Of a DNA stretch of 64,000 nucleotides, positions 573 through 64,000 are shown one piece after another. The notes under the pieces are model-generated. The model did no database searches and had not been told where the DNA came from. It worked only from the letters and a program-made list of their open reading frames with translations. Source of the stretch: Liolophura sinensis (taxonomy: Eukaryota > Mollusca > Polyplacophora > Chitonida > Chitonidae). Numbering within the stretch: the stretch's first letter is position 1; the number at the start of each line of letters is the position of its first letter. The stretch lies in the NCBI RefSeq assembly GCF_032854445.1, contig NC_088295.1, forward strand, positions 50,517,385-50,581,384. The letters are read 5' to 3'. The translations under genes and the position numbers were made by a program.

Positions 573-714
573 GAGACATACAGGGATGTTATAACAGTGG
601 ACAAGCTCAAGCCTTACACACATTACCTGTTCCAAGTGGCCGTCAGTAACTACTACACAGAGTACTTGTCAGAGGAGATGGGACCAGCCATGATCTACCA
701 GACCAAAGTTGGCA
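573..714 (+). CDS. ROS1: ROS1 exon: end of a fibronectin-III module
   Basis: The acceptor is at 571-572 and the donor gtaagt at 715. The exon encodes residues 1-47 of the visible product, with the FN3-typical core [14 protein letters not shown] followed by the linker to the next module. It ends in phase 1 and joins the next exon through an Ile codon. Confidence 0.85.
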
Positions 715-3700
715 GTAAGTTTTCAATCTGCATAAAATGCTAATTGTAGTTCAGTGAAGAAAAAGGGTCAAATAGATCTCGTCATACTTGATATATACCG
801 AGTTAAAATATTAAAGAAACTGGGTACTTTGTATGTTGGATTAAAAACATGTACTACGCATCCCTTCACTTAAATGTTTAAAAACATCATCCAAAAGACG
901 AAAAAATTCTTGAATATTATCCAAATATCCAGTTCATTGGCAGAATTGATATTGGGCTAAACAAAGAGAGATCTATAAAGCCCTGATACAGAAAGATACC
1001 ATGTTGTGTTTTATGCATTTTTGTTTGTTGTCACATTGTGGAGGATTTTAATCACAAAAGAATGGAATGGAATTAAACTAAATGTTATGAAAAAAAAAAT
1101 TGGTCAAAGTTTAATATAATTCATTTCTACAGTGACTTTGTAGGTCTTCACTTTCAGATATGACACTTGCCGTGGTGGTGTGAAGCCATAATCTTTCATT
1201 CATTCAGATATGACGCTCTTACTTGTATATGTGTTATAAAGAGGATGCACCTGTATTTCAGTACCACCTCTGTATATGAGATGATAACATTTTAGATCAT
1301 GGGATTCAATGCACAAAGCTATTTTTGATCTAGAAGAGGTTGATATTGTGATTCATTTTATCCTGACATAACACTTGTGATGTGTTCCCAATTGTGACTC
1401 AAATGGATACAAATGTAATCATTTAAATCATATTTTACATTTTGACTTAGGTCTAAACTGGATTTGTGGAATTGATTTTGTTGATTTGAAATAAAGACAT
1501 TTCTCCAATTTTTGTCTTTCAGTTCCCTCTCCTGTAGAGAATGTGACAGCATCTGCAGTGTTACCAGGGAAGATTAAGGTGGAGTTTGATGTGCCCCTCA
1601 TAGCTAATGGCCCCCAGGACTCTATCTACTATGTAGTTAAGTGGATGACTGCCACATCGGAAAATGGGGTGCTGGAGGGACAGACAGCCGGGGAACAGAA
1701 TCACAACAAACGGCACAGAGTAGGGCGTGTGGTGCCCAACCTCAAACCTGAGACAACCTACCGGATCAAGGTACAGGAAAAAGTTGTAACATTACAAGTA
1801 CAGAATCAGTTGTAACACTGCAAGTTCAGTGTCAGTTGTAACACTGCAAGCACAGTATCAGTTGTAACACTGCAAAGCACAATATCAGTTGTAACACTGG
1901 AAGTACAGTGTCAGTTGTAACACTGCAAGCATAGTATCAGTTGTAACACTGCAAGCACAGTAACAGTTGTAACACTGCAAGTACAGTGTCAGTTGTAACA
2001 CTGCAAGCACAGTATCAGTTGTAACGCTGCAAGCACAGTAACAGTTGTAACACTGCAAGTACAGTGTCAGTTGTAACACTGCAAGCACAGTGTCAGTTAT
2101 AACACTGCAAGCACAATATCAGTTGTAACACTGCAAGCACAGCATCATCACCATTTATATAAATTCCTATCATACTGACTGAAAAATGTCCAGAAATAGT
2201 TTATGGTTTCCAGTGAAGGTAAAGACGTTACTGATTAGCGTATCTATTATAAGACTTTGACATCTGTGTAAAGAACTGTCTAGTTGAATTCATTTTTTTA
2301 CAAAACATCCACTTTGTCTTCAAGGAAACAACAGGGTGAACTTAGTCTCATGGAGAAAGAGTTTATTGATATTCATTGCTGTTGCTATTTAGATTTGGTT
2401 TTCATGTAACCTTCTGTAGCAGAACACTTATCCCAAGTAGAAAAACGACGACAAGACTTCAGACCTTCAACCTTTTCACATGTTTACAAGGAGTTTATTC
2501 AAGCATTTTCAGAGGGAATTATTCTGTGTAGGCTGAAATTGATTATGCTTTTTCTGAAAATATACTCATGTACATGTGTAATAATTATACATATATCACT
2601 CATTTAAATTATACTTTTTGTTGTCCCCCAAAATCCGAATCAAAATGGCCGAGGCAGTTAGAGTACCAGCACAGCCTCTCACCAATGTGGTCCCAGTGAG
2701 TTCAAGTCCAGCTCATGTTGGCTTGTGATATATGCCAGCATGAGCTGCGGATGGTTATTGGTTTCTCCCGGGTTCTACCCGGTTTCCTCCCACTAAAATG
2801 CTGGCTGCTGTCATGTAAGTGAAATATTCTTCAGTACTGCATAAAACACCAATTAAATAAATAGATAAAATAAAGCAAATTAAATAGGTTGCATAAAGGT
2901 TGAATACTTAGGGAATCTTTAGTTCTTTTAACGCTCTCTGTGACTTCGTTTAGGTTTTGGCCTATGAGGAGAGCCAGCAGTATTACAGTGAGAGTAAACC
3001 TGTGAAGGTCACGACCTTTGCCTTCCCTGGGTTGATCAACTGTACTGGTGTCACAGAGACAACAATCAACATCACCTGGATGTCACCTAAGGATGATAGC
3101 ATCCACTCCCACAATTTCTTCATCAAAAAGGTAAACTTTTTGTATTTTGAACATAGTATTTCAGTAAGAGAAAAGAAATCAAGAAATAGATTGAAGTCCT
3201 GATTTGGCCTTTACTAATTAAACCTTCTAACACACAGTTTTGTCAATTCATTGTCCGAGCGTAAAATGACCTTGCTGCTTTATGGCGTTGTAGAGGTACT
3301 TGCCTATGTTTTAGCATGATGGTATTCAAGTATAGATTTAACTATTAACAAGCTATCAATATTTTTTTTTAATACTTGAAACCCCAGCCCACCAGGGGAA
3401 CATATTTCCTGTGTTGTATAGTTGTGTTGTGCTGTATAGTGATGACATTGATAAACAATGGCATGCCTGTCTCTTGTGATAACATTTTCTCTCAAAACCT
3501 GCATATTAAGTGAGAACTGCCATGCTGGGATGGATGAAAGGTGGGTGTAAACCCATGGCTTGAAGTCCATTCCCATGAGGCTGTAACCTCTGTACATGTT
3601 TTGACGTTCTAGCAGCATTGTAGGATGTAAAAGTTAGGAAACACTGGATTTACCAGAATATTTTGGAGTGAAATTTGCAGGGAATGGACTTTTCAATGAA

Positions 3701-6700
3701 TGATGAGAACACAGCAGTTTGAGAATGCCTGGACTGGATTGTCTCCAACCTTTCCGCATGTTTACAAGGTGTTCATTCAAGCATATTCTGAGGCATTATT
3801 CTGTGTAGACACTTAGAAAATTATATCTTTTATGAAGCCCTGAATTTGACCAACCCAACCAATGCATATTTTGTCTCCAGACTTAAATTACAAGGTGCAT
3901 AATCACACTGATAGTTGGTCTTTATTATGTGAAAAGATTAAAGAATTAAAGTAGTTGTTTTGAAGTAACCTAATGTGAAGTTTGAATTGATTGGAGCAGT
4001 ATGTTCCTGATGAGGGAATGGCTGAGGGTGACTGGCAGCCACTGAGACTGACACGGACGGAAAACAACACACAGTACAACGAGACATTCACGGACCTGGA
4101 GCCCGGCACGCGCTATGTTTTCAGGGTGACTGTGGTGTACAGGTCCTCCGTGGTCCTAGCCTGGCCAACAGACCCAATCTTTATCTTTGAGACTCAGTGT
4201 AAGTTTTCTTAAACTAAGGTGTATTAAAGTTATAATGATTGTGCGATGTACCAATTATGATTTCAGGAAGGAAGGTCACAGCTTGTAAATGTATCCAAGG
4301 TCAACGCTTTGAGCAGAATCCATGTTCAATTCCCTTAAATTATGGAAATGAAGGCTTGACACCAAGACTAAACCATAATCTTCACAACAATTTGAATTAG
4401 CATATTTTAAAAAAAAAGATCACAGTATAGCCTTATTTAAGTAAATCCAGATGTTGAAACAGAAATTTGAAGAACTAAACCTGTATTTTGTGGAATGTTT
4501 TTTTTTTGCTTGACAAAAGGTATCGTAGCTCCAGATCTCATTGGCACAGTATACTTGGTGGTCAACATGAGGAATGGAACAGAGAGATATGAGACCTTGA
4601 TTGAAATGTGGTATGCCTAATATTGTTGGAAATATGTATATGTACATATAGGGATAACTGGTACACCGAATCATGGTTCATGATAATAAATAAAAATTGT
4701 GTTAAATCACAACAGATGGACCCATGAGAGCTGTTGGGGAGGACAACACCCTGGTGGTTGCAGTGACACTGGCAGTCATCGCTGTCATCTTCATGCTCGG
4801 CCTGGCCATATGCTTTTGTAAGTAATACAGCTTTCCTGATGTCGTAAAAAGAAGCTAATATCGGTAGCCTTTAATACATTAGAGAATTTCTCTCAGCTAA
4901 TGAACCAAGATTCAAGGGTGGGATGAATCTGAGAATGAGCTGAGCTAATGGTTGAGTATCTGTATGTGTTCTGTTAGACCAGGTACCTTGTACGTTTTAA
5001 TCAAAAGGTCAACAGACAAGATTGATGTGGCGTACAGCTTTACATTTTGATGGGATCAAACATTTATTCCTGCCCACGGCCAGATATTTTCCTTTGTAAA
5101 GCAGAATATATCAAACGTAAATAAGTTAAATTGTTTTATGTACACCAAAATTAAAAGGAGTGTTCTTGAAAATTCTCAGATATCTTGCCACTTTGAAGTG
5201 CAAGTCCAGATTTACCTTCCATAGTGTGCTATCAGCATCCCAAAATGGAGGCCTATAGCTGATGGTGGTAGAGGAGAGAAGGGATATATGGAGTTGATTA
5301 GTCCAAAAATCTAACAGAACGCTTCTCCAGATGTCTGAAATCTGAGAATGGGTTCCCCTTACCCATAAAGAATCATGAAAGCCAAATAATTTTGTTAACT
5401 AGAACTTTATGTAACATGAAATGAATGAATATGTTCATGCATGTGTACAGTGTTACACAAAAATGTCATAATGTTATGATCTGGTTCTGTCAGTGGTGAA
5501 ATGTAGGAGGCTTGACAAGAAAAGAAAACCCAGTCACTTTGTGAATGGTGCTAGAGGACCGGATACTGAGCTGGCCATTCTACGAGAGTTACCTCATACA
5601 ACTGTCCAGCAGAACAACACTCTCTATGCTATTAGGTAGGTTGTATGTCTGTCAGCCATTCTGCGAGAGTTACCTCATACAACTGTCCAGCAGAACAACA
5701 CTCTCTGTGCTGTTAGGTAGGTTGTATGTCTGTCAGCCATTCTACGAGAGTTACCTCATACAACTGTCCAGTAGAACAACACTCTCTATGCTATTAGGTA
5801 GGTTGTATATCTGTCAGCCATTCTACGAGAGTTACCTCATATGACTGTCCAGCAGAACAACACTCTCTATGCTGTTAGGTAGGTTGTATGTCTGTCAGCC
5901 ATTCTACGAGAGTTACCTCATACAACTGTCCAGCAGAACAACACTCTCTATGCTGTTAGGTAGGTTGTATGTCTGTCAGCCATTCTACGAGAGTTACCTC
6001 ATACAACTGTCCAGCAGAACAACACTCTCTATGCTATTAGGTAGGTTGTATGTCTGTCAGCCATTCTACGAGAGTTACCTCATACGACTGTCCAGCAGGA
6101 CAGCACTGTCTATGCTATTAGGTAGGTTGTATGTCTGTCAGCCATTCTATGAGAGTTACCTCACACAACTGTCCAGCAGAACAACACTGTCTATGCTATT
6201 AGGTAGGTTGTATGTCTGTCAGCCATTCTACGAGAGTTACCTCATACGACTGTCCAGCAGGACAGCACTGTCTATGCTATTAGGTAGGTTGTATGTCTGT
6301 CAGCCATTCTACGAGAGTTACCTCATACGACTGTCCAGCAGGACAGCACTGTCTATGCTATTAGGTAGGTTGTATGTCTGTCAACTGCTACATGTAGCAG
6401 CAATTTCCTGACTGAATTCATCATAGACAACTCTTTTTGGAAAATATTTGATTGAAAGTCTTATGATTTGAATGATAACGTCATTTGCATCCTCGTTTAG
6501 TCTCTAACAAACACAAGTTAAAGCTCATAGAATTGCCTCATTGATTTTGCACAAAAACTTGGTACTGTAGAATGTTGGTTATATCTCAGTAGAATTGAAA
6601 AACCCAAGTCTAAGACTCTATAACATACCCACTGCTTTACCAAGCTTTATGAAGCTTGCTTGTGAGGGTCCTCGTACTATGAATATCTACATAGGCTATG

Positions 6701-9700
6701 ATCACAAGACTTTACCACTACATGTGCAGGTTTTTTTCGTAAAGCAAATATCGTTACTGTCAGGAAAAACATTAACAACATTTTGGGTTTTCAGTATCAT
6801 TCCTACAGATGAAGATATAGAAGCCTTACCTCACTTCAGTCGTGACCAACTTAATTTGACAAAGTTCTTAGGCTCAGGGGCGTTTGGGGAAGTGTTTGAA
6901 GGCGTGGCTAAAGATATCCTGGGCAGTGAATCTGGGGATACCAAAGTGGCTGTTAAGGTAAGAGTTCATTGGCTAGGCATCATGTGATATATGTTAGTAC
7001 ATTATGTTTCATTTTGTCTAATTGTGAAAACATAATGTACCATAAATCTGGTAGGACAATATATGCGTACTGTATATTGTTTTGGTGAGGCTTATCTTCA
7101 TGGCAATAGCTCAAGAACAAAGTGTTGGAGAACAACAATGACCAGTTTTGTAGATGTTGTGTGTCTAATAAAACAAAGGAAGCTTCTCAAAAAGCAAAAT
7201 TTTCAGTTGAGGAGTTATGCCCCTATTCAACATTTTTCCATAATGCAAATGAATCAGGTACAGATTTAGGCCTTGAATATTTTGAATATGTGGAATTCAG
7301 AGGAGCCAATTCAAGCACAGTGTTTTCAGTTTATAACTTACACAATTCAGAGGTTCCTGGGATCAGTTTTACGTCTTAAAAAGATTAAAGGTAATCCCAA
7401 GTACTGAAGTGATCTTCTGTCTGTATTTCGGTCATTATTTTTATTCCTTCATCAGTTAAGTAAACACAATAAGGTGTATATAGGTGTGTAATCATGGAAA
7501 TAATTCTGTACCTCTGTACTGTGGTAAGCCTAAATATTTGTGTGTTGTAGACACTAAGGAAGAGCGCCTCTGACCAGGAGAAAGAAGAATTCCTTAAGGA
7601 AGCGCTCCTCATGAGTAACTTTAAACATGAACATATATTAAGTCTGCTGGGGGTCTGTCTGGACAATGACCCACAGTTCATCATCCTGGAGCTGATGGAG
7701 GGAGGAGATTTGTTGTCATTTCTCAGGAACAGCCGGCCAAGTGTAGTAAGTTACTGAACAGCTGATAAATTTTTGATTATAAAGTATAGGATAGAATTAA
7801 TCATGAAATGTATTTCCGATTATGCTGGCAGAGCTTTACTATGCCTGAGAATAGTCGCACACATTTTTCATAATGAGATTTATTTGATGCAGATGTCTGA
7901 TTGGCTATGGACTTGTCAATCAATCAATGTCTGCGATTGACAGGTTGGCCTGTGGTTTTGTGGATCTGCCCCATATGTCCATGTAAAGACCATCTCTTCA
8001 GTAAAAACATTATTTCTTAATTAAAGTCTGTGATTGGCTTACAAAATATGCATGTAGCCCAATCTGTCTTCTAAAACCATTAACACAACTTGGACTTCAG
8101 TACTGTTTATACATGCACATTCTTGGCGTTAAAGAAATTTTTGGACATGCTCTAAAAGTTATATTTCCTCTTCCATCAGTGACTGTGTTAACTACCATAG
8201 ATCTGTAGGGCTGGCTTAGATCAAGCTGACAAATCTGAGCCTGTCTAGGTGGACTTTGTGAGCATTAAATACACATTTTGGATAATTAAAATAAACAGTG
8301 TCAAAAATCTGTGTTCATGTTAAAAACATTGTGTATATTTTACCCCTTAACATTAAGATCTTTAAACATAAACATAGGAATTTTGTCAAGTGGGTTTGAA
8401 TCCCTAACATGCACAATACATCTCCTCACAGTGTATTATGTGAATATTTTGTCTCCTAGTGTAATCCCCCACTCTTGAACCTCTCTGATCTGGTCAAGAT
8501 CTGTCTACATGTGGCCAGAGGCTGTGGGTATTTAGAAAACATGCACTTCGTTCACAGGTGAGTATTAAAGAGTTTGCTCGTTTTCTGATTTATGCGTTTT
8601 AGCAGGGCTTGTGTTTTTCAGATTGACTTTGTTAGAATCAACAATATACATGTACCGTACCTTTTATACAGAATAGTCTGACGTATGTAATGGTAAGCAT
8701 ATGCATACTGATCAATTTTTTGTTTGAATGTTGTTTCCCAAAAAAAAGCCATGTATAAACTTTAAACTGTGTATAGAGGCGAGAATTGCAATGATATGTA
8801 CATTTATAAATTAGTCAGTGTCATTTTGGAGGAAACTTTTAATTGTGTGTGCTTTGGAAGGGGAACATAGCTCATTGTTTGTCTGAATTTTCTGTACAGA
8901 GATTTAGCTGCCAGGAATTGCCTGGTCTCCTCCAAAGACCCATCCTTAATGTCCGTGAAAATTGGGGACTTTGGTCTGGCCAGGGACATCTATAAGAATG
9001 ATTACTACAGGAAGGAGGGGGAAGGGCTGTTACCTGTACGTTGGATGTCCCCTGAGTCACTGGTGGATGGTGTCTTCACCACACAGTCTGATATCTGGTA
9101 GGCTTGTCAAGAAAATCATGGAAAATTTCAGTCATCGCCATGTTAACCAAGGGTCATGCATGTGTGTATGTACTAAGTCTCTCACAAACAGGAAGGAATT
9201 GAAAACAATTAAGCACATTGTGTCCATGTTTGTTAATGAGCAAAATGGCCAGAGCTTCCTCAGCCTACAATTATGTTGACTACCACGGAAGATCTAGGTC
9301 ATGATGGCAGTTAAACATCACTCTCACAGCTGTTTCAAGTGACTTTCAAGTAACGTAGAGTTGTCAAAATGATTGTAAACGCTGATGACAGTTCATTTCT
9401 AGACAAGGTTATTCTGTTCTATTTGTTCAGAATTAACTCAAGGTAAACAAATTTGTAACGACTTTGAATATTTTAACAAATACAATATCTATTTCACTTC
9501 AAATTAGTTCATGTGTATGCTACTTTGATTCGAAGTTGAATCACATGAACAAAATAATCCTATTTGATCATCCTACATGTAGAAACTGTTCTGGTTACCA
9601 GGGCTTTTGGTGTTCTGGTGTGGGAAGTGATAACCCTGGGGCAGCAGCCTTATCCCGCCCGCACTAACATAGAAGTTTTACATTACGTGAGGGCAGGTGG

Positions 9701-12700
9701 CAGGCTTGACCGACCAGAGAACTGTCCAGATGACTTGTGAGTACAACACACTACTCCCTCCCCTCACCCAGTGTTAACCCTGAAGCTTACACAGCGCTGA
9801 AAAAAAAGTCGCCTTACTATATATTTATTGATCTCTCCAGGAACACCCTTCATATAATACTCCCTAGTATTCATGGATATAAATATTGTCATGTTATCAG
9901 AAAGCTGACATTTTCCACTGCAAGAGCATCATCCAAAATTCATCACATCACCAAGCAACTTGTATCTATCTAACTGTTGTTTGGGACTATCTTAATTGTT
10001 TGGGAATTCTACCTTACCTGAATTGTCCAGTTTCATACAGTGCCTGTGTAGATATGACCTGAGTCCTGTTCTGTTTGTGTAGATAAGATCTTTGTCTTGT
10101 TCTGTTTCTGTAGATATATGACCTATTTCCTATTTTGTTTCTGTAGAAACGTGTGACTTGTTGTCCTGTTCTGTTTCTGCAGATATGACCTGTGTCCTGT
10201 TCAGTTTGTTTGGATAAGACCTGTTGTCCTGTTCTGTTTCTTTTTTCTGTAGATATGACCTGTATCCTATTCTGTTTCTCTAGATGTGACCTGTATCCTG
10301 TTCTCTTTGTGTAGAGATGGCCTGTATCCTCTTTCTCTTCCTGTAGATGTGACCTGTATTCTTTCCTGTTTTTGTAGATATGACCAGTATCCTGTTTTGT
10401 TTCGGTAGATATGACCCGTATCCTGTTCTGTTTCTGTAGATATGACCTGTATCCTGTTCTGTTTTTGTAGATATGACCTTTGTCCTGTTCTGTTTCTGTA
10501 GATATGACTTGTGTCGTGTTCTGTTTCTGTAGATATCACCTGTGTCCTGTTCTGTTTCTATAGATATGACCTGGTAACCCAGTGTTGGAGCTGCCCACCA
10601 GAAGACAGGCCATGTTTTGCTACAATCCACAACCAACTGGAAGAGTTTTATGAAAAATCACTGGATGAGCACAGTGAATTCTCAGCTCTCTGGTCCAAGC
10701 ATGTGACAAATGGTATGTCTCTTTCCACATTCATGAATTATTATAATTACGTAATTTTATTGTCTTCGTCCAACAGTTTTCCTGTATGTTTGCCTGCTGT
10801 TGTACAACCCACAACCAGCGGTATATCAGATCCTGTACAACCTGTGTCCAACTTTGTCCCATTCCTGTAGTTATGTATTAAAACAGTTAGACTAATCCCC
10901 ACAAACACTGACCATAAACAGCTTGCTGTCTTTCCATGTGGCCAATATTCTTTATCAGCTTTGCTTATTGTCAAATCCTAACACAATGAAATTACCCAGA
11001 TTTTTATTTATTTTTTGTCCAATTTTTTGTGGCCTGAACAGTATGTTTATAAACCATTGCAGCTGCTGTTTTGCTCATTGCATCACATTTGTTTGACAGA
11101 AATTTAATGTTTGCCATTTTCTATTTTGAATATGTCAAAAATTTATTGTAACACATTTAAATGCAGTATAAATCCCCTTTTCTTTAATAGTGGTTTACTC
11201 CAGGCACTCTTCTTTCCTCCACACGTAAAACTGACTGGTGAAAAAATTTTGAGTATGGTCTTAAACAACAATCAAATAAATTATTAAGTAAATCATAGAT
11301 AGTGGGTTGCTGTCCATTGCTTGTTCAGTGACCACACTCAGTGGTTGCTGTCCATGGCTTGTTCAGTGACCACACTCAGTGGTTGCTGTCCATGGCTTGT
11401 TCAGTGACCACACTCAGTGGTTGCTTTCCATGGCTTGTTCAGTGACCACACTCAGTGGTTGCTGTCCATGGCTGGTTCAGTGACCACACTCAGTGGTTGC
11501 TGTCCATGGCTTGTTCAGTGACCACACTCAGTGGTTGCTGTCCATGGCTTGTTCAGTGACCACACTCAGTGGTTGCTGTTCATAGCTTGTTCAGTGACCA
11601 CACTCGGTGGTTGCTATCCATGGCTTGTTCAGTGACCACACTCAGTGGTTGCTGTTCATGGCTTGTTCAGTGACCACACTCAGTGGTTGCTTTCTCGTCT
11701 GATTGTTTATTTCTTCCTGATGTAAGGTAAATATTCTTGAATACGTCATGTAATAACAGTCAAACAAGTAAATCTGGGATAGAGTTGTGGTGTATTAGCG
11801 GGCTTTAAGGAAACCTTAAACTCTTGACCAAGGAGAGGCACATTTGAATACAGTTCTTGTGTATGGATATGTGGCTTTGCAACCAGTACCATGGTTACCT
11901 CCAGGATGGGTGAAGATTTCTTAACCAATAAACCTGATAACAGCCGACGTAGTTTAAGAAATCTTGACCGCAGCAATGAAATAATTATATTCAGTGAATA
12001 GGTTTCTGTTTGTACTGTGCAGTGTAGTTGTTGTACGTGAAGAATTGTGAAGAGAAAAGATCCAAATTTGTGAAACATGTCTGAGTGGTTAAGCTGTGAT
12101 GTGATTGACACAAGTGCATGGTTTTAAATTACACATTTCATTAATTGTAAATATTGCTTTTTTTGAGTTTTGACCATGATTAAATTTTAAGTATATTTAT
12201 TCAGCTCTGTTGGGAGTTGTAAAGAAGTAAATATCAGACATATTCATGTCAATACCATGTTGATTCCCAGGAGTTCAAAATGTTCTATTAACAATTCTGG
12301 CAGCAAATAACACACTGGCTCCACTTTCCTAAGTCTCAGTGTGATTTCAGTGTAGTTTTTCCTAAATTATCTGATTAACCATTTAACAGTTAAAACCAAA
12401 CTCTGCTGGTGTCAGAGGTCCAGTGAAAGTGGTGCCTGTTTTTGTTAGCAGTCTTTGAATCACCTAAGGCTCCTTAATCTACCACCCGTCCACATGGATG
12501 CACTGCCAACATGCTCTGGGTACCTTTTCTCACTCAGCGGCCATACAGTTTCAAACTGAAATGTGAACACTTTCATGTCATCTTGCATGACTTTCTTGCT
12601 GTTAACATATTGAAGCCTTTTAGGCAGGGCCCTACAAACTCTGATGCATTCTTGATGTGGTCATGGATTACTTGAGAAGCATTTTTTTTTACATATCTGG

Positions 12701-15700
12701 AACAAATTTCTCCCTGGAAAATTATAATTGAAAACTAAGTTAGAAATCATGCTGCAGCAAAATCTATGATAAATTTTTTGGTTTACCATTAACTCAAGAC
12801 TGTGGTTTTATTAGTCATTGAACCACACTGAAATTTAGATTACATTACCAAGTACTGCTGAAGATCAAAACTCACATGTAAACATGATCATGGCATTTTG
12901 ACTGCTTTGATACATAGAAACAGAGAGGAAAATTGGAATGTGTTTGTTTGCTTAATTGAAGAGGTGATTCCAAGACTGCTGAGCAGTTGATAAGAATGAT
13001 AAACCTTGTGCATGTTGAGTAACACTTGTGCTGTTTTTCCCTCTTTCTCTCTGACTTAGCCACTAGAACTGGGTATGTATTGGGCCCTGCCTCTAAGTTT
13101 TTACACCTCTGTATCACTTACTTTATTAGTGAAAATGAGGCATGGAATATCACTTGTAGAACAGGTATCCACATACTTGACAAATCAATGGAAACTGTTT
13201 TCATTTTGATACTGAAAGTATTTTTTTTTAAGATTAAAAGTCTTTATGAGAAGATAGTTGAGGCTTTCATGAAACTGTTAAAATGAAGTCATCTGAATTG
13301 TATGACACTGTAGATGTGTCTTATTTGTAGAGAAAAAAATGAATAAACAAAGAAGTTACTGAATCAATAAATTGTTCATATCTTCTCTAAAGCATTAATT
13401 AATTATTGCGGTCACATTTGTTGTAATGTGGGAACCTTTACAGTTAAATATTATGTACATGAAAGTGTTCAGATATGATATGTTACTGTTGTTTAGGTGT
13501 GTTGTTTCTGCTAATTTGGCTTGCCCGTTGGTATTGTCTTATTGTTATGTTGAAATGTGGATACTCCAACTATTTATTTGCCCAAACACCCATCCCCTCC
13601 TGCACTGCCAAGTTTATAATATTTTCTAAAGCAATTATAAAAGAACTTTTACAATAAGAATAAATAATATTTGTCTTTAAATTTTGTATTGTCATTCGTA
13701 AAATGGCAAATCAGATATAGAAATATTTATTTTTTAACTTAGACATGAATTTTGGTGAATTTGCATCCTGTGAAAACAACCTTATGCTAGAAGCACACAT
13801 GTTCACACATTGCTCTTATTGTCATCAAATCCCAACCCTTACTGTATCCATTTTGACCGGCTGATTTGTATTCAGTTCGTGGTGAAGTAAATCTGACATG
13901 GTGTCCTAAAATTGAAATTGTAGCACTATGTGTCATGTAGCACTATGTGTCATGTAGCATTATGTGTTATGTAGCACTATGTGTCATGTAGCACTATGTG
14001 TCATGTAGCACTATTGTTTTGTTTCCACAGTTTCTTCACAGCTGCACACGTAGCTGAGTTGTTTGATATTGATAAGCTGGCATGTTGGTTTTATGTCAGT
14101 TTCCCTTCTACCATACAGGTTAAGTGTTTATTAATATCAGTAATTTAGTTCAGGCCCATAAAGTGCACGAAGTGTTGGGGGGTGGGGATCAGGGATCCAT
14201 CCCCCAGTTTGTACCTTAGCTCTCATAGTCTTTAATATTTTTCAAGTAGTTGGCTCTGTTCACATTTACACATACTTATATTGATTGAAAAGGAATTTAA
14301 AATGAGCCACATCTATAATTGGCTGGAATAGTCCACTGGGTACATTCTGGTTACGTACCTGTAGTTAGGTTATGCCTATGTTTTAATTCTTTTTTTTTTG
14401 TTAATTTTCTTGAGAATAATAACTTGTTTATATGTTGACATTATAGTCTGTTGCACTTGTTCTCCAGTAGTGCACCAAACTTTAACATCGTACCAAGTAT
14501 TTACTTCTCCATGCAGCTTGTCAATTCTGAAGTCATGTGTTTGTCAAAACCCATCCATAGTACATTGCATGACAAGATGCTGAAGTTATGTGTTTGTCAA
14601 AACCCATCCATAGTACATTGCATGACAAGATGCTGAAGTCATGCGTTTGTCAAAAACCATCCATAGTACATTGCATGACAAGATGCTGAAGTCATGTGTT
14701 TGTCAAAACCCATCCACAGTACATTGCATGACAAGATGGTTTTGTGGTGAGAAAAGGTGGCTTAGTTTCAGTTGCACAATTTTGACCAAAAGATGTTGAA
14801 CAGTTCTTTAGTAATCAAGAAACAATTTCAGCTGCCTTTTCTTTTTTTAATTGATTTTTAATTGTGTCAGTATATCATAACTTGTAGTCCGTGACATAGA
14901 TATGGATTCGGTCACTCATGCTTGTCTTCTGATGGGCAACAAAATGTGACTATATTTGCAGTTGTTTCCTTCATTGTATACGTCTTCACCCTTGTTTTAA
15001 GCAGTCCCTAATGGGGTTTTGTTTGTTTTTGTACCTTTTTTTGTGATTGTCCATTGGGGTATATTATATCCTGCTGATATGTTTACCTGTCTACCCTAGT
15101 GGCTGCTATATTTAGACCTACGTGTATGTTGTGTATTGATCGTTGATATATGTATATGTATTGATGTCTGAACTCATCATATGAATGTTTTCACCCCGAC
15201 TCACCCTCATGGTAAAGTTGCTCATGAGATAACTGTATCTTTTTGATGATGTCTCAATTCTTGGATAGTTTTTTACATTTGCAGTAACTGCACCTATAGA
15301 TATCGTCACTCTGTTGATAACTTTGCCCTGACCATGTGTGGTGTACCCGCATGGTATCTTTAATATCATGGTAAATTTGCCCTTGCAATGACTGTTCCTT
15401 GTGGTATGTCCACCCTCATGATAATTCCACTCGAATGATATCTGGTCCTCACTGATAAATTTACTGTAGAGATAATTCCTTCATTGTAATATGTTCACCT
15501 ATTGAAAACTCCATCATACATTTACCTCTCCTGATGGTATCACCATCAACCTAAGGATAACTGTTATTCTCACCCTATTGATAACTTTACCCAAAGGATA
15601 TTTGCATGCTCCCTTGTCTTATCTTCACTTCCTTGTCATATCTTTACACTGTACCCTAATGATAACTGTTCCCTTGTGGTGCAAGTATCTTTACCCTCGT

Positions 15701-17367
15701 GATAACTTTACCCTAATGGTATCTGTTCCCTTGTGGTACAAGTATCTTCACCCTGGTGATAAATTTACCCTAATGGTATCTGTTCCCTTGTGGTACAAGT
15801 ATCTTCACCCTGGTGATAAATTTACCCTAATGGTATCTGTTCCCTTGTGGTACAAGTATCTTCACCCTGGTGATAAATTTACCCTAATGGTATCTGTTCC
15901 CTTGTGGTACAAGTATCTTCACCGTCTTGATAACTTTACCCTAATGGTATCTGTTCCCTTGTGGTACAAGTATCTTCACCGTCTTGATAACTTTACCCTA
16001 ATGGTATCTGTTCCCTTGTGGTACAAGTATCTTCACCGTCTTGATAACTTTACCCTAATGGTATCTGTTCCCTTGTGGTACAAGTATCTTCACCGTCTTG
16101 ATAACTTTACCCTAATGGTGTCTTCATCCTGGTGATAAATTTGCCAAAGGATAACTGCTCCTGTGCTAGTGATTGCTGTTTTACTTTCCTTCTTGTGATT
16201 TCTTGAACTTGCGATAACTCCATCGTTGTAGTGTGAGTAGCAAGCATTTACATTTGTGGGAACGATTCCTTACTGCTTCCTCCATTCATTTGAACTATAC
16301 CCTTGTAGTTCCTTTACTTGGTGGATAACACCATGTATCCTGGATCATGTATGCCTCAACTTCTTTGATAACTGTTCCTTGTTGTGCCTTTATTTTTAAC
16401 TGATGTTATATTTTAACCATTGAGATGTACATACATGCCCTTGTGGCATCATTGAACTGGAGGTATATTTTCCCTCATGTTGTACCTTTGAGCCCTTGTA
16501 ACCAGTGTGTTTGTTGATGATCCTTGTGTCTTCATTATCTTGACTGTTACCAGACATTATTCATCTGTTGTACTGCCAGGCGATATCCTAACTATAAACA
16601 AATTTTGATAATTAATCAAGTTAAGGTAGATTCTTCTTCAAACTGAAGGAGTGGTAAAGAGAGTGCATGTTCAACGCGGCTAGACACTGGAAGCTTGAAC
16701 ATGGTTATTACGCTGACTGTAATATACTTGATTGATATCAGTGCAGAAAAGAAATAATGGAAATGAAATTTTCTTCATTATTACCAAAGTTGCAGGTTTT
16801 GTGTGTTCGGGATTTATTTATTTATTTATTTGATTGGTGTTTTACGCCGTACTCAAGAATATTTCACTTATACGATGGCGGTCAGCATTATGGTGGGTGG
16901 AATCCGGGCAGAGCCCGGGAGAAACCCACGACCATCCGCAGGTTGCTGCAGACCTTCCCACGGACGTGTATTCGGGATTGTTCTTTCATGATCCTATTGA
17001 AGTTAATTTAGTAGTTATATGTAAATGACAGAGTTGTTTCGAAAAGTGAAGATTGATGTTCTCTTGAGGTTCTGGAAAATTGTCTTGCTCCTTGTGCTCT
17101 TGGTGGACACAGTTTCACCAGTGGCATTTGACAGAGACTTCCGTGGTCAAATGGCAATCCTATTGTGGCATGTACATGTCATCCATTGGTCGTTTCCAAG
17201 TTGTTTTCCCAGCATGTTATCCGTTCATTGCGAGTTTAGTACGAGTTATTTGTCATCGTTTAATGCTTTCTGTACAGTACATAGGTGTTACTAGTAGAAT
17301 TCTGTCAGCCTGTTTTTGTTGAAGTTTGTATGACAACAGATGACAAAATGCTGCTGTGAGATCCATC

Positions 17368-17398
<31 letters not shown>

Positions 17399-20300
17399 GG
17401 ATAGATAAATATATTATCTTATCTTCTTGTCTGATTTATAGTGTATAAAGCATGGCTCAGTAGATAGGTACTTGTAGTACATGAGGGTTTTTATAGCATG
17501 GTATACGACATTAGCAAGTGACTTATCTCGTCTTCTGGTGTGTCCACTTTTATATACCCCCCTTGTTGCATGGCATCCAAATAGTGGTACTGATGACAAT
17601 TTCCTATTTGATGTCGAGCTAGCAGGAGACAACAAGGGGGGCGAAGCAGGCGAAACCGACGCTGTACTAAAGACATCCACCCCTCTTACCCCAAAGTCAT
17701 CAGAGATCAAAGGTGTGTGGCCTAGCTCAGTCCAGCTCAACTGTTGTATCATTATACATCTGACCAGTCATTATACACCTGACCAGTCATTATACACCTG
17801 ACCAAACATTATACATCTGACCAGTCATTATACACCTGGCCAGTCATTATACACCTGGCCAATCATTATACACCTGACCAGTCATTATACACCTGACCAG
17901 TCATTATACACCTGGCCAGTCATTATACACCTGACCAGACATTATACACCTGACCAAACATTATACATCTGACCAGTCATTATACACCTGGCCAATCATT
18001 ATACACCTGACCAATCATTATACACCTGACCAGTCATTATACACCTGACCAAACATTATACATCTGACCAGTCATTATACACCTGGCCAATCATTATACA
18101 CCTGACCAATCATTATACACCTGACCAGTCATTATACACCTGACCAATCATTATACACCTGACCAAACATTATACATCTGACAAGTCATTATACACCTGA
18201 CCAATCATTATACACCTGACCAAACATTATACACCTGACCAGTCATTATACACCTGGCCAATCATTATACACCTGACCAGTCATTATACACCTGACCAAA
18301 CATTATACATCTGACCAGTCATTATACACCTGGCCAGTCATTATACACCTGGCCAATCATTATACACCTGACCAAACATTATACATCTGACCAGTCATTA
18401 TACACCTGGCCAATCATTATACACCTGACCAAACATTATACATCTGACAAGTCATTATACACCTGACCAATCATTATACACCTGACCAGACATTATACAC
18501 CTGGTCAGTCATTATACGTGTGACCAGTCATTGTACCAAATCAGCCATCAAACACTTAAGCCAGTCACTGTATTAAACCAGTCATTATACATCTGATAGA
18601 TTACTCCATCAAACCAGTCATTGTACTCAACTGTTCAATGTAAACAGGGAGTAACTATTTTCACAAGTTCCCAGCCATTGTGTATGTGTACCAAACTGTT
18701 CATTGTAAGCAGGGTGTAACCATCTTCAGATGTCATCGTGTCATACCCCTAACACTTGTATGCCATTGTGGTTTGAATTCTGTTTTTGTAATTTCATCAA
18801 TGGTATTTCATCAATGTGTTGAACTGTTGAAAAATGGTTTAATGCATATCATTCTTAAATTTATTTTAGACTTACACAAGTGTGGGGAGGGTAGAATTCC
18901 TTTTTTTTTTTTTTTTGTTGGCATTTCTTGCCGTAATTTTAAACATGTAGATAATAGCAAAATTGGCATCACGGTAATCACCCAAAATTGGCACCATGGT
19001 AATCACCCAAAACTGGCATCAGGGTAATCACCCAAAATTGGCATCAGGGTAATCACCCAACAGTGGCATCAGGGTAATCACCCAAAATTGGCATCAGGGT
19101 AATCACCCAAAATTGGCATCAGGGTAATCACCCAACAGTGGCATCACGGTAATCACCCAAAATTGGCATCATGGTAATCACCCAAAACTGGCATCAGGGT
19201 AATCACCCAACAGTGGCATCAGGGTAATCACCCAAAATTGGCATCAGGGTAATCACCCAAAATTGGCATCAGGGTAATCACCCAACAGTGGCATCAGGGT
19301 AATCACCCAAAATTGGCATCAGGGTAATCACCCAACAGTGGCATCATGGTAAACACCCAAAATTGGCATCAGGGTAATCACCCAAAATTGGCATCAGGGT
19401 AATCACCCAAAACTGGCATCAGGGTAATCACCCAAAATTGGCATCAGGGTAAACACCCAAAACTGGCATCAGGGTAATCACCCAACAGTGGCATCAGATT
19501 GCTTTCATCAAATGATACCACTGTCTAAAGGAATGTGGAGGACGAAAGGTGGGATTCGCTTCCAACTATCAGTCAGATGAAAGGTAGCTTTGTATGTGTA
19601 CAAGGTAATGTTTGTACATATGTATACATGCATACTATACATGTACATATGTACAAAAATACTGCATGTGTCCATATTTAACTTAGCTTTTGCTTATCAT
19701 CAGTACTAACCCCAGGCCATCTGAATGTATATATGCTGTCATGTTAAATAATCATCAGATGTGATCTTCAGATGTGGGCATATTATTTGATCTAGCTTAC
19801 AAAGGGTATAAAGAAGTTCCAATATGTTTTTGTTTTTTTTAATCAAGTCATCAGTGGTCTTTGTTCATAGCAACACATATTGTCACTTCACAAAGTGAGT
19901 TGTTGTGTCTTGCCTTTGTCTTGTTCACTTCTATCACCAGAAGAGATAATATTTTTACAAGTGTACATTTTTAGTAAGAAAATTTTTTTCGAAAAAGTCT
20001 TTAGTTAGTCATAGGGCAGGGGTGTTTGGTCAGAAGTTACAGACTTTCTATAGATATGGGAAGGATTAGTAAAGAAAGTTAGTGTATTAACCATTTGATC
20101 ATCCATGATGAAATGTTCTGTGCTTAAATGTGCATGAATGTTGTGTCATTTATCCTAAACCCTCTTGAGCCTCATCAGCCTGTCAATTCACATGTCACTC
20201 ATGTAGCTGTAAGTTCAATGCACTTGTACTTCATATTGGGATCTTAGTTCACATTGATATTGAAGCTTTAGGTGGCATTGCTAAATACAGTTGATCTTGG

Positions 20301-21996
20301 GGCTTTCCGTGGCTTTGTCAAATACAATAGATATTAGGGTTTGGGTGGCATTGCTAAATACAGTTGATCTTGGGGTTTTCCGTGGCATTGTCAAATACAA
20401 TAGATATTTGGGTTTGGGTGGCATTGCTAAATACAATTGATATTAGGACTTTGGATGGCATTGTCAAATACAGCTGATATTGGGTTTACATGGCACTTCC
20501 AGATACAGTTGATATTGTAACTTAAAATGGTATTGCCAAATACAGATGATGTTGGAGCTTAAGGAGACATTGCAAAATACAAATGATATTGGGATTTAGA
20601 TGGACGTATCAAATACAGTTCTTATTGGGGCTTTGAATGACATTGCCAAATACAGTTCTTATTGGGGCTTTTGGATGACATTGCTAACTACAGTTCATAT
20701 TGGGGCTTTGAATGACATTGCCAAATACAGTTCATATTGGGGCTTTCAATGACATTGCCAAATACAGTTCATATTGCTGGTTAAGAAAACATTACCAAAT
20801 ACTTTAATATTGGGACTATGGATGACTGCCATATACAATTCATAATGGGATGATCAGGTACAGGATGATGAATACAGGAAATCTTGAGAGTTGACATTGT
20901 AGGCTCTATATGGTTCTTTCTTGCTGCAGAGGCTGGATCCGTGAGGCAGAGTCCAACAAATCCCGACTGCCTGAGACAGTGGAGCTCATTGGCTGGAGCT
21001 GAAAACTACACTCCCTCTCCTGACAAGGTGAATTAGCAAGTGATGTTGAGGTGTCACAGTATTGGTATATACTATCCGTAATTTTGGTAATTATGAAAAA
21101 GATTTAAATGATGAATATAATTAAATAATGTAAAGATAAAAAATGAATGGAATACAAATGAATGACATCTGTTATCAGTCTGATGAAAATTAGCTCGCAG
21201 AAATCATTCTTCAGTTGAAGAAAAATTTTGTTCAATGTGTTTTCTTTTTCCCCAGGAGCTGAACAACAACCACCGAGGTTCTAAACTGCCTTCGTCTTCA
21301 CCTCAGTCCCCCTGCGATACAGCAGCCTTTTCTGGTTACCTTCAGCCCAAGAGTCAGGAGCTTCACAAATATCTGGAACTGATCAGTGACCCCTCAGACA
21401 CCCCCGTTATCAGTGTGCCTTCTGGGGGAGCAAGGCCCAAAAACGGCAGTTATCGCTCTCCCGATTCCCACAGCCCACCCAGATACCCCAAAACAAATTA
21501 TGCTCAAATCAGTGCCCCAGTAGTCTCGGGACAGGGTTCAGCCCTTCCCCTATCTGCATGTAAAACAGCTCCCAGTGTCAAGCAGAGCAGCAAGCCAGGA
21601 ATACATTATGCTAAGCTTGCCAGCTTTGATGGCGATGAGGTTTCTTCTGATTCTGATTTTGAGGGTCGTTCCTCGGATTCATTAGAAAATTTACCTCTCG
21701 CACCAACCCTGGCAGATAACCAAGGCAGGTTTAAACGGCCTGGATCCTTCTCACAAGTCCACCCCATGACCCCACCAATTGCCCAGTATATGATCCCAGT
21801 GTCCACCCCTAACAGCCCTGAGAGTATAAACCCCAGTGCAGCCTCAAGCACCCCTCCTGGACCCTCTGTTAGAAAAGACTATGTTAACATGGACAGAGGA
21901 GACAACTCGATCCCACCAAGCAGCACCCAGACTTCTGCCAATCCTGAGATGATGTGGGGGAGTGGTGTGCTAGATACCATGGGAACCATGTGCTGA
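573..21996 (+). CDS. ROS1: ROS1/Sevenless-like receptor tyrosine kinase, 3' part (14 exons, 5' end outside window)
   Basis: This is a single-pass receptor tyrosine kinase of the ROS1/Sevenless family. Exons: 573-714, 1523-1770, 2954-3130, 4000-4198, 4716-4817, 5494-5635, 6795-6957, 7551-7745, 8460-8557, 8900-9097, 9602-9736, 10564-10712, 20930-21027, 21256-21996. All have AG/GT borders and join in one frame to 928 codons plus stop. Visible order: fibronectin-III modules (about 1-255), transmembrane helix (about 267-289), juxtamembrane (290-357), kinase (about 358-640), tail (to 928). Kinase landmarks are GSGAFG (363-368), Lys391, Glu408, HRDLAARN (Asp490), DFG (512-514) and the activation loop YKNDYY (Tyr520/524/525). 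The loop and the DILG segment after the glycine loop are typical of ROS1. In this family the extracellular part senses a ligand (Boss for fly Sevenless, NELL2 for vertebrate ROS1). The protein is partial because its N-terminal half lies upstream. Possible cassette exon: 17626-17712. Confidence 0.93.
1523..1770 (+). CDS. ROS1: ROS1 exon: fibronectin-III module
   Basis: The acceptor follows tttgtctttcag and the donor is caag|gtacag at 1771. It encodes an FN3 module opening with [10 protein letters not shown] and ending [10 protein letters not shown], whose last strand continues in the next exon. The last four bases of this exon seed the downstream tandem array. Confidence 0.9.
1767..2146. repeat. 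26-bp minisatellite starting on a ROS1 5' splice site
   Basis: About fourteen units of caag-tacag-(g/a)atcagttgtaacactg follow each other directly. The first, 28-bp unit contains the real exon end and donor (caag|gtacag). Later units have lost one G, so they read caagtacag. The stretch from 2147 to 2640 holds only AT-rich intron sequence. Confidence 0.9.
2660..2871 (+). mobile_element. diverged SINE copy, plus orientation
   Basis: It matches the local tRNA-derived SINE from the box-B region (gtgagttcaagtcc) to the tail (ataaaacaccaattaaataaa). Many substitutions and an internal deletion/rearrangement show an old copy in a ROS1 intron. No clear target duplication was found. Confidence 0.8.
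2954..3130 (+). CDS. ROS1: ROS1 exon: FN3 end and start of the membrane-proximal FN3
   Basis: This phase 0-0 exon of 59 codons starts after cgtttag and ends at aaaaag|gtaaac. It completes one FN3 module ([17 protein letters not shown]) and begins the next ([10 protein letters not shown]). NIT is an N-glycosylation sequon. Confidence 0.92.
4000..4198 (+). CDS. ROS1: ROS1 exon: membrane-proximal FN3 module
   Basis: The acceptor is ttggagcag and the donor gtaagt at 4199. The exon encodes the second half of the last FN3, with the signature [15 protein letters not shown] and two potential N-glycosylation sequons (NNT, NET). It ends in phase 1. Confidence 0.93.
4716..4817 (+). CDS. ROS1: ROS1 exon: transmembrane helix
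   Basis: The acceptor is cacaacag and the donor gtaagt at 4818. It encodes a short acidic linker, then about 22 hydrophobic residues (core [19 protein letters not shown]). The next exon opens with the basic stop-transfer [10 protein letters not shown], which fixes the topology as extracellular N-terminus and cytoplasmic kinase. Confidence 0.93.
5494..5635 (+). CDS. ROS1: ROS1 exon: juxtamembrane segment
   Basis: The acceptor is ttctgtcag and the donor attag|gtaggt at 5636. The encoded segment, [10 protein letters not shown]...NTLYAI, aligns with the ROS1 juxtamembrane pattern (ELAELRGL...CYAI). Its last 61 nt are repeated ten times in the array that begins inside this exon. The first donor is the only one giving an open junction to the next exon (AG|T, Ser). 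Confidence 0.9.
5573..6382. repeat. 81-bp minisatellite made of the ROS1 exon tail plus its 5' splice site
   Basis: Ten near-identical 81-bp units run from 5573 to 6382. Each contains the last 61 nt of the juxtamembrane exon, the donor attag|gtaggt, and a 20-nt spacer ending in tgtctgtcag, which looks like a 3' splice site. The first unit is the real exon end. In the ROS1 frame each unit boundary reads ATT AGG TAG, a stop. Open frames across the array are in another frame and arise because 81 is 27 codons. Confidence 0.96.
6795..6957 (+). CDS. ROS1: ROS1 exon: kinase glycine loop and catalytic lysine
   Basis: The acceptor is gggttttcag and the donor ttaag|gtaaga. It encodes the pre-kinase segment [12 protein letters not shown], then [12 protein letters not shown], the ROS1-like insert [11 protein letters not shown], and VAVK with the ATP-binding lysine as the last residue. 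Confidence 0.96.
7551..7745 (+). CDS. ROS1: ROS1 exon: kinase N-lobe, helix C and hinge
   Basis: The exon starts after tgttgtag and ends at gta|gtaagt, 65 codons in phase 0. It carries the helix-C glutamate in [10 protein letters not shown] and the hinge [16 protein letters not shown], nearly the ROS1 consensus. Confidence 0.95.
7746..8459 (+). other. ROS1 intron, no additional feature seen
   Basis: This is AT-rich intron sequence between the hinge exon and the helix-E exon. I saw no coding segment, array or SINE in it. Confidence 0.7.
8460..8557 (+). CDS. ROS1: ROS1 exon: kinase helix E to the catalytic-loop histidine
   Basis: The acceptor is gtctcctag and the donor cacag|gtgagt. It encodes [23 protein letters not shown], and the junction falls inside the Arg codon of HRD. 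Confidence 0.95.
8900..9097 (+). CDS. ROS1: ROS1 exon: catalytic loop, DFG and activation loop
   Basis: The acceptor is tctgtacag and the donor tctg|gtaggc. It carries [26 protein letters not shown] and [12 protein letters not shown]. The three activation-loop tyrosines of the ROS1/ALK/insulin-receptor type are all present, so the kinase looks active. Confidence 0.97.
9602..9736 (+). CDS. ROS1: ROS1 exon: kinase C-lobe
   Basis: The acceptor is ggttaccag and the donor gactt|gtgagt. It encodes [18 protein letters not shown] and [14 protein letters not shown], the standard C-lobe of receptor tyrosine kinases. Confidence 0.96.
10051..10563. repeat. 31-bp minisatellite iterating a ROS1 3' splice site
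   Basis: Sixteen units of about 31 bp (consensus gatatgacctgt..cctgttctgtttctgta) lead directly into the exon at 10564. Each unit contains a pyrimidine tract, TAG (once CAG) and bases like the first ten of the real exon (atatgacctg), so nearly every unit is a potential acceptor. Using any upstream one would meet the in-frame TAG of the following unit. Confidence 0.95.
10564..10712 (+). CDS. ROS1: ROS1 exon: end of kinase domain
   Basis: The acceptor is ttctatag, the last of the repeat series. The donor is aatg|gtatgt. It encodes [18 protein letters not shown] and the final helix [13 protein letters not shown], then the start of the tail, ending in phase 1. Confidence 0.94.
11302..11694. repeat. 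38-bp minisatellite, about 10 units
   Basis: Units of gtggttgctgtccatggctt plus gttcagtgaccacactca repeat with very few differences, so the array is young or homogenised. It is intronic in ROS1. Confidence 0.95.
13921..14014. repeat. 17-bp minisatellite, 5 units
   Basis: The unit tagcactatgtgtcatg occurs five times plus a partial unit. Intronic. Confidence 0.95.
14528..14738. repeat. 53-bp tandem repeat, 4 units
   Basis: Units begin at 14528, 14581, 14634 and 14687 with the shared start tgaagtcatgtgtttgtcaa. Intronic. Confidence 0.95.
15658..16117. repeat. 57-bp minisatellite, 8 units, with diverged flanks
   Basis: Eight units (core ggtatctgttcccttgtggt, then acaagtatcttcaccctggt) lie within a wider zone, about 15180-16500, of older, degenerate relatives with gataac and accct motifs. 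The open frame through it reflects 57 being 19 codons. Confidence 0.93.
16813..16966 (-). mobile_element. SINE copy, truncated, minus orientation, with target-site duplication
   Basis: It is the tail and body of the local SINE in reverse, cut at the gaccttccca position. The direct repeat gtgttcggga (16803-16812) / gtattcggga (16967-16976) flanks it. Confidence 0.88.
17626..17712 (+). CDS. candidate cassette exon of ROS1 tail
   Basis: A segment with coding character, [21 protein letters not shown] and following residues to SSEIK, sits between a possible acceptor (gagctagcag, pyrimidine patch upstream) and a donor (aaag|gtgtgt). It is 87 nt, phase 1-1, exactly the phase of the junction between 10712 and 20930. 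Including it would add 29 residues to the tail without a shift. The acceptor is weak, so it may be alternative or not an exon at all. Confidence 0.4.
17750..18530. repeat. 19-bp minisatellite, about 40 units
   Basis: The unit cattatacacctgaccagt occurs about forty times with variants at ag/aa/gg positions arranged in higher-order blocks. It starts shortly after the candidate exon at 17626-17712. Confidence 0.96.
18961..19497. repeat. 25-bp minisatellite, 21 units
   Basis: The unit aattggcatcagggtaatca plus cccaa repeats 21 times, alternating between aattggc and cagtggc variants. A poly-T tract lies just upstream at about 18901-18916. Confidence 0.96.
20252..20850. repeat. degenerate tandem repeat, about 37-bp unit
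   Basis: About sixteen diverged units share the core gcattgccaaatacagttga followed by tattggggcttt. This is the oldest-looking array of the gene and ends just before the exon at 20930. Confidence 0.85.
20930..21027 (+). CDS. ROS1: ROS1 exon: cytoplasmic tail
   Basis: The acceptor is cttgctgcag and the donor acaag|gtgaat. It encodes a short Ser/Pro-containing tail segment ending ENYTPSPDK. Phases 1 and 0 match both neighbours. Confidence 0.85.
21256..21996 (+). CDS. ROS1: ROS1 terminal exon: tyrosine-rich C-terminal tail
   Basis: The acceptor is ctttttccccag and the stop is TGA at 21994-21996. It encodes 246 residues of disordered Ser/Pro-rich tail carrying spaced tyrosines: GYLQP, KYLEL, NYAQI, HYAKL, QYMIP and DYVNM (Tyr about 891). 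YVNM fits both the YxxM consensus for PI3K p85 SH2 domains and the YxN consensus for Grb2. This is a docking tail by inference from motif rules only. Confidence 0.92.
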   Translation, partial: ELNNNHRGSKLPSSSPQSPCDTAAFSGYLQPKSQELHKYLELISDPSDTPVISVPSGGARPKNGSYRSPDSHSPPRYPKTNYAQISAPVVSGQGSALPLSACKTAPSVKQSSKPGIHYAKLASFDGDEVSSDSDFEGRSSDSLENLPLAPTLADNQGRFKRPGSFSQVHPMTPPIAQYMIPVSTPNSPESINPSAASSTPPGPSVRKDYVNMDRGDNSIPPSSTQTSANPEMMWGSGVLDTMGTMC

Positions 21997-41475: not shown

Positions 41476-42101
41476 GAATGCAGTGTTAAATTTTAGCTCA
41501 CCTGTATAGCTGGAGCTTGTGTCAGAGTGTTTGTGTACAGTATATATGGTAATTTTATAGTAATATGGATAGTTTTTTGACTATGCTTATGTACTGTGTA
41601 ATTTTGTCATTGAATTACTTATGTGGATGTAGCAATTTCTAAAATTCAGAGAAAGGATATTCAAAGATTTTTGCCTGATTTATTTGATTTGTGATTCAAC
41701 ATTGAATGTTCAGTCGTGGTCTATTCAATGTTCAGATAAATATTCCAGGCTGTATTAAAAAGCACTTCATGTATTGAGGTCAGGTTTTGCATACTTTTAA
41801 AATCCAATAACATAAAGAGGATGTTTATTCATGGCTTCGTCTCTTGTATGGAGTATAATGTAGTAAGTCGGTCAATGTTCATTAAAGATCGTGTGTATTT
41901 TGTGAAAATTGGTGTTGATTCTATCAATGGACATATACATACACTGTATATGTATTTAAAATTGCAGTTTATATTAAGTACATGCAACAGGACTGCTGAT
42001 TATCAGTGTAATTACCTGCTGGAGTTTCGTGCAATTTTAATCTCGATTCAAAATTGAATTAACTCATCATGTTTTTTTTTTTTTGTTCCCCCTTAGTAAC
42101 T

Positions 42102-63396: not shown

Positions 63397-64000
63397 GTAT
63401 ATTGTCAAATAAAATAAAGTATTGTACGGGAGGCCGTTTCGATCCCGGGTATATATCGCCAAAAATGATAGTCTGTTTGTACATGTTTGTACATGGTTGG
63501 CGGGAACAGAAGTTTCAGTTCACCATCGACCTTTGGTAAAGGCTGTGGTTGAATCTGCCATCACATATATTAGTCCCAACCTATATAATCACCAAAATAA
63601 GGTGAACTTTTTGGATGCAGCGTCACCTGCTGAAATGACAACGTTTAATAGAGCTGCGCGGTGTACAGTGTCGGGATTTGACAGATAGAATGTGCCCATT
63701 TCTCCTGGGATATGTGCCCGGTTTACTCCGCTTATGCATATATCGGTTAGCTGTCACATATATGGGTGAAATATAGTCTTCTGTTCGACACAATGCGGAG
63801 TTAAATCCCAATACGTATTTTATTTATTTGATTGCTGATTATACGGCGTACAGAAGATTATTTTGCTAAAATATAATTAACAGCGATGAGATTTATTGGA
63901 GGAGGAAACCTTGGACAGACGTACGTGAACAGACCCCATACCTGGACTGACCCCCTATCTGGACAGACCCCATACGTGTATGGACAGACCCATATACGTG
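63397..64000 (+). other. intron 2 of CRYL1 copy 2
   Basis: It matches 52093-52690 of copy 1, including the short cagaccccatacgtg-type tandem repeat at the end (63910-64000; copy 1 at 52595-52690). No gene is seen. Confidence 0.85.

Follow-up and report, generated by a model that had tools for sequence, protein, structure and literature searches.

Ten tandem splice donors at the juxtamembrane exon of a chiton ROS1-like gene: a probable neutral minisatellite

Introduction

Minisatellite-like arrays that copy an exon–intron border, called mirages, have been described in the lancelet genes Adh3, BflGb6 and BflGb9 (globins), troponin C and PGBD5 (PMC3087553, PMC3902484). According to these papers, splicing is normal, array length differs between haplotypes, the Adh3 array is somatically unstable, and mirages have been proposed as a source of new introns. 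The arrays described here, found in a ROS1-like gene of a chiton and elsewhere in its genome, resemble them in being minisatellite-like copies of the exon–intron border at 5′ or 3′ boundaries, with many signals and the gene itself intact. Within the ROS1-like gene alone, one array lies at a 5′ boundary (array B) and another at a 3′ boundary (array C); the unit of array B spans the exon–intron boundary and its authentic junction, placed by protein only, lies at the exon edge. The chiton arrays differ in that their host is a mollusc, in that some have 10 to about 43 copies and in that 7 of 85 surveyed donors are affected; moreover, whereas splicing and length instability were tested in the lancelet, the chiton arrays are described from the genome sequence.

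A short repeat unit makes up the minisatellite of the human gene IFI6 (6-16). As in the chiton, its units supply several donors, but the downstream ones are used and give rise to several mRNAs (Turri 1995, cited in PMC4526556). The VNTR in intron 18 of human ABCA7 is similar in that the first two bases of its 25-bp unit are the exon 18 donor, repeated into the intron, and different in that the unit begins at the donor, without an exon tail, and that an effect of length on splicing has been shown (PMC5954066). In potato RdRp, under the tandem genomic duplication model of intron gain (PMC4974935), and at the dual-specific AGGT sites of UBC (PMC10809524), a duplicated segment likewise supplies splice sites; a new intron arises there, whereas in the chiton an old intron is merely lengthened.

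Among molluscs, the abalone TSSK1 gene has a 27-bp minisatellite within an intron, with copy numbers that vary among individuals, and the accessible part of that paper makes no mention that we found of a splice site within it (PMC6905558). No splice-site arrays were found in the available sections of papers on Lucina haemoglobin and Conus gene structure, and work on minisatellites and alternative splicing in C. elegans was rejected as a precedent because the part available concerns other motifs (PMC4039745). We found no report of splice-site arrays in molluscs in the literature searched, which covers subscription journals thinly and in part only.

Materials and methods

The window, i.e. the whole 64-kb stretch of DNA analysed, corresponds to C1:50517385-50581384 of a haplotype-purged assembly of 609,464,459 bases in 632 contigs; the published Liolophura japonica assembly has a reported N50 of 37.34 Mb, and RNA-seq sets from five tissues are public (SAMN35319765 to SAMN35319769; PMC11068029). 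In the model of the ROS1-like gene, exons 1–12 were joined in one frame and the acceptor of exon 13 was set at 17626 so that the frame continues. Tandem arrays were delimited with Tandem Repeats Finder (TRF).

Junctions for a wider survey came from searches of the chiton's own genome for a kinase family (152 matches) and the myosin head (81 matches). Exons were surveyed at 74 of the kinase and 47 of the myosin matches, selected for coordinates with several clustered exons or for being among the 30 best kinase matches; one locus (L052) was taken once its array was known from L007, itself one of those 30. The junction caller, whose splice matrix is a rough consensus, returned 50 donors and 60 acceptors for the kinases and 35 donors and 46 acceptors for the myosins. 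At one locus (L042) it took the second copy, and the true donor, 40 nt upstream, was restored by reading the sequence; this check by eye covered the junctions with arrays. A junction scored positive in the automatic test when the 28-mer crossing it had at least two further copies within 1.5 kb. TRF and inspection added the L042 donor and an acceptor in L045 that has two copies only.

Results and discussion

The first 22 kb of the window hold most of a ROS1 orthologue. The model (573..21996, forward strand) has 15 exons encoding 957 aa without a stop codon, is incomplete at its 5′ end, and is ordered as fn3, a transmembrane segment (by inspection), a juxtamembrane segment, a tyrosine kinase and a tail; Pfam recognises the tyrosine kinase domain and fn3. 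Its top PDB match is 9oyz (2311 residues, 458 bits), which carries only the name 'Tyrosine-protein kinase receptor'; the following three matches are all named ROS (442, 438 and 434 bits), and ALK scores lower (317 bits). The peptide across the exon 6/7 junction, YAISIIPT, aligns to YAVSTLPS of 9oyz. With a kinase closest to ROS1, fn3 and the putative transmembrane segment, orthology to ROS1 holds as judged from sequence, in agreement with the original prediction, which had also placed the array in the exon that encodes the segment next to the kinase. This is exon 6 (5494..5635, forward strand, 142 nt), the juxtamembrane exon, and the next, exon 7 (6795..6957, forward strand), opens the kinase domain; the two are joined as ATTAG/TATC (..YAI-S-IIPT..; here and below, a slash marks the exon border).

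Other parts of the window contain a single 1417-aa open frame (42063-46316), representing a long uninterrupted coding exon or gene, and two near-identical open frames (51821-52235 and 63125-63539) with similar tandem repeats nearby (51198-51462 and 62862-63028). The pair is probably a dispersed repeat or a duplication.

Array B lies at 5574..6383 on the forward strand (TRF period 81, 10.0 copies, 95% matches, no indels, score 1452), one base later than the 5573-6382 initially given for its ten 81-bp units. Each unit consists of an exon tail and 19 nt of intron. The tail, predicted to be 61 nt of the real exon end, is present in every unit and counts 62 nt: the array starts 62 nt inside exon 6, so that unit 1 takes its exon part from the real exon end, and extends into intron 6. 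Units depart from the consensus at 0–4 of 81 positions, with units 1 and 6 identical to each other, as are units 7, 9 and 10, and the DNA search found a single place in the assembly. All ten donors read TAG/GTAGGT, the same over nine bases, from donor 1 (GTAGGT, 5636..5641, forward strand) in 81-bp steps to the tenth, which begins at 6365. The acceptor-like site that had been noted as tgtctgtcag is present, as 'tctgtcag', at the nine unit joints. Its AG arises only where two units meet (intron '...gtca' followed by exon 'g...'), since the intron past the last unit reads 'gtcaact'. A 61-nt mini-exon between these sites is possible on paper.

When each donor was joined to exon 7 in turn, donor 1 gave the full 957 residues, the only one of the ten to keep the frame, and donors 2–10 led to a stop at model residue 338, the protein ending '...TLYAIR' ahead of the kinase. 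Both the claim that later donors hit a stop and the truncated, kinase-less protein predicted from them are thus reproduced by the model. Units 3 and 8 contain additional in-frame stops, which argues that the extra copies are not kept as coding sequence.

The same gene carries an array at an acceptor. Array C (10047..10573, forward strand; 31-bp units, 16.5 copies by TRF) repeats a pyrimidine tract and TAG together with the opening 10 nt of the kinase C-lobe exon behind it (10564..10712, forward strand). Of its 16 extra 3′ splice-site copies, 15 have an intact AG and 11 score at least as high as the real one; among 18 acceptors joined in turn, full-length protein came from the last alone, the exon's own. 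Two further arrays on the forward strand follow donors: array A (1782..2147, 26-bp units x14) starts 11 nt past the donor of exon 1523-1770, and array D (17749..18536, 19-bp units x41.5) starts 36 nt past the donor at 17712. By inspection, array A looks like a degenerate duplicate of the donor region (CAAGGTACAG versus CAAGTACAG).

We consider it likely that array B is a neutral 'mirage' minisatellite that crosses the junction, with its exon-proximal copy used through exon definition. A short stretch of the exon–intron border would have been duplicated in tandem and the array would have grown by slippage or unequal exchange, one junction always staying joined to the exon. The spliceosome would take the exon-proximal donor 1, leaving the other nine donors as part of intron 6, most likely because exon definition pairs donor 1 with the upstream 3′ splice site across the short 142-nt exon. 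We infer this proximal use solely from the frame that the protein needs, which points to the first copy in donor array B and to the last copy in acceptor array C. A shortest-intron rule would select the wrong copy in both arrays, and a first-transcribed rule would select the wrong copy in array C; exon-proximal choice fits both and is favoured. Exon definition is expected where exons are short and introns long, and the ROS1-like gene has a median exon of 149 nt and a median intron of 761 nt.

Tandem copies across junctions recur beyond this gene. The automatic test was positive at 6/85 donors and 2/106 acceptors of the kinase and myosin loci, and together with TRF and inspection by eye, 7/85 donors (in L042, L044, L052, L058, L062 and L066) and 3/106 acceptors (in L045, L060 and L065) lie in arrays. 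Including the ROS1 junctions, from which the search started, the counts are 8/99 and 4/120, a non-significant difference between donors and acceptors (P=0.14). Copy number ranges from 2 to about 43. A tyrosine-kinase exon ending HRDLAARNILLQSKRQ has its donor in 16 units of 67 bp (L044), and an exon that is FGFR-like by inspection has its donor in 7.7 units of the same length (L052). Two donors of the myosin gene L062 (C12:678100-687200) each have their own array, one of 31 bp x18, in which 16/17 extra donors score below the coding GTGAGT, and one of 66 bp x7 that opens a longer array. In L060, a myosin gene on C2, about 43 copies of the 3′ splice site, the real one included, lie upstream of the P-loop exon FERNQSIIVSGESGAGKT (L060:1646-3006). 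This array ends at a run of exactly 200 N, which we take to be a gap left by scaffolding, and is possibly longer than visible. In a motif scan, the true L060 acceptor had no branch-point-like T-N-A-Y within 40 nt, which counts against the neutral mirage reading.

In the survey locus L055, 6.8 units of 28 bp resemble a branch point plus pyrimidine tract and stop 4 nt before the exon (acceptor at 416), the extra units having no AG. In L058, the neighbouring exons at C1:26642195 and 26643291 match the same myosin-head segment (about 118-152) and are presumably the mutually exclusive exons expected of molluscan muscle myosin. Arrays with a period of at least 10 cover 7.4% and 15.6% of the sampled loci, the samples being non-random; for Liolophura japonica, the category 'Other (simple repeat, microsatellite, RNA)' is reported at 0.08% and unclassified repeats at 14.04% (PMC11068029).

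The frame consequences of array B could also be read as a copy-number switch, whereby extra donors would be spliced in proportion to array length and yield either a kinase-less, membrane-anchored receptor or nonsense-mediated decay. Donors 2–10 equal donor 1 over nine bases and all lead to one stop, at 338, after the juxtamembrane segment; in human, the exon 18 donor array of ABCA7 produces an isoform retaining one unit and its length affects splicing (PMC5954066), and two downstream repeat units of IFI6 act as donors (cited in PMC4526556). By analogy with ABCA7 the idea would not be absurd, and the later-unit donors of these two human genes count against the neutral mirage reading. However, like arrays occur at donors and acceptors of unrelated kinase and myosin genes, and the lancelet arrays are described as harmless to mRNA (PMC3087553, PMC3902484). 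The unit lengths are also without bias to frame: among donor arrays of 81, 67, 67, 40, 31, 66, 31 and 140 bp (from TRF, 66 from spacing) and acceptor arrays of 31, 32, 95 and 68 bp (TRF), only 2/12 are divisible by 3, and selection on frame was not supported. We found no support for array length as a regulator of receptor versus kinase-less protein and regard a copy-number switch as improbable. Its extension, in which chiton junction arrays would form a genome-wide, length-variable control of splicing and a kinase-less, membrane-anchored ROS1 decoy would track copy number, appears distinctly improbable.

Just as doubtful is a self-correcting arrangement of dual-specific sites, in which use of donor k would leave a GT...AG segment of 81 x (k-1) that further splicing between donor 1 and the unit k AG would remove, restoring the same mRNA. 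The sequence allows it, since every array B unit has an AGGT motif of the UBC-like dual-specific type, placing AG/GT at a period of 81 bp, and the AG is preceded by a brief run rich in pyrimidines (ctctctatgctattag in unit 1). Yet AG/GT is not enriched at array donors (5/8 versus 48/91 elsewhere, P=0.72), and the three array donors in L052 (TGG/GT), L058 (TTG/GT) and L042 (GTT/GT) have no AG.

It is very unlikely that the row of donors is a selected redundancy that raises U1 recruitment and rescues a weak site, although the extra sites are well preserved. Decay of extra donors was not supported: 65/70 retain GT, 38/70 equal or exceed the score of the coding copy (eight arrays), and in 6/8 arrays conservation is slightly higher in the nine donor columns than next to them, a hint that extra donors could be used. 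The power to see decay is low, because intact copies are favoured when copies are collected by similarity, and because arrays homogenise. At extra acceptors, AG is kept in 58/61 and 49/61 score at least as high as the real site (four arrays). Competing use of the extra sites is therefore quite possible, and site choice within arrays cannot depend on strength alone. Against redundancy, array donors are not weaker, the seven surveyed ones having a mean score of 5.1 versus 4.8 for the others, and weak-donor rescue was not supported.

Nor are arrays significantly commoner at junctions than in introns. In the ROS1-like gene, 2/10 arrays cross a junction where permutation gives 1.27 on average (P=0.37), with no significant excess within 15 nt (P=0.18) or 40 nt (4/10, P=0.10) of one. 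Junction 28-mers with at least two further copies occur at 2/50 donors and 0/60 acceptors of the kinase loci, compared with 7.9% of all positions, and at 4/35 donors and 2/46 acceptors of the myosin loci, compared with 15%. Array starts number 9 per 75 nt on the exon side and a mean of 5 in the neighbouring intron (ROS1 left out; binomial P 0.11), a count in which some arrays are entered twice, once per end, and which hints weakly that arrays may be seeded at junctions. Repeats inside exons occur at 1/110 positions, tested 40 nt inside kinase exons. Rare exon repeats without a junction excess would be expected of neutral growth, if duplication of a junction is costless and that of an exon costly.

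An assembly artefact is the least likely explanation, for although there is a single assembly with 14x HiFi coverage and the L060 array abuts its run of 200 N, the 810 bp of array B are well within HiFi reads of reported mean length 8,347 bp (PMC11068029), its units have distinct variants, and eleven more cases of tandem copies across junctions were seen.

The chiton junction arrays are probably mirages, in a phylum for which we found no report of them in the literature searched, and suggest that minisatellites at splice sites occur more widely than in lancelets and a scatter of human genes. About one surveyed chiton donor in twelve sits in such a minisatellite, and it is this frequency of junction arrays in the genome that is worth following. 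The arrays are natural experiments in which the spliceosome is offered between 2 and about 43 similar sites side by side, and because the required copy is the first in donor arrays and the last in acceptor arrays, 'first transcribed', 'shortest intron' and 'exon-proximal' rules could be separated. They are also a trap for gene annotation, and a candidate raw material for the growth and gain of introns.
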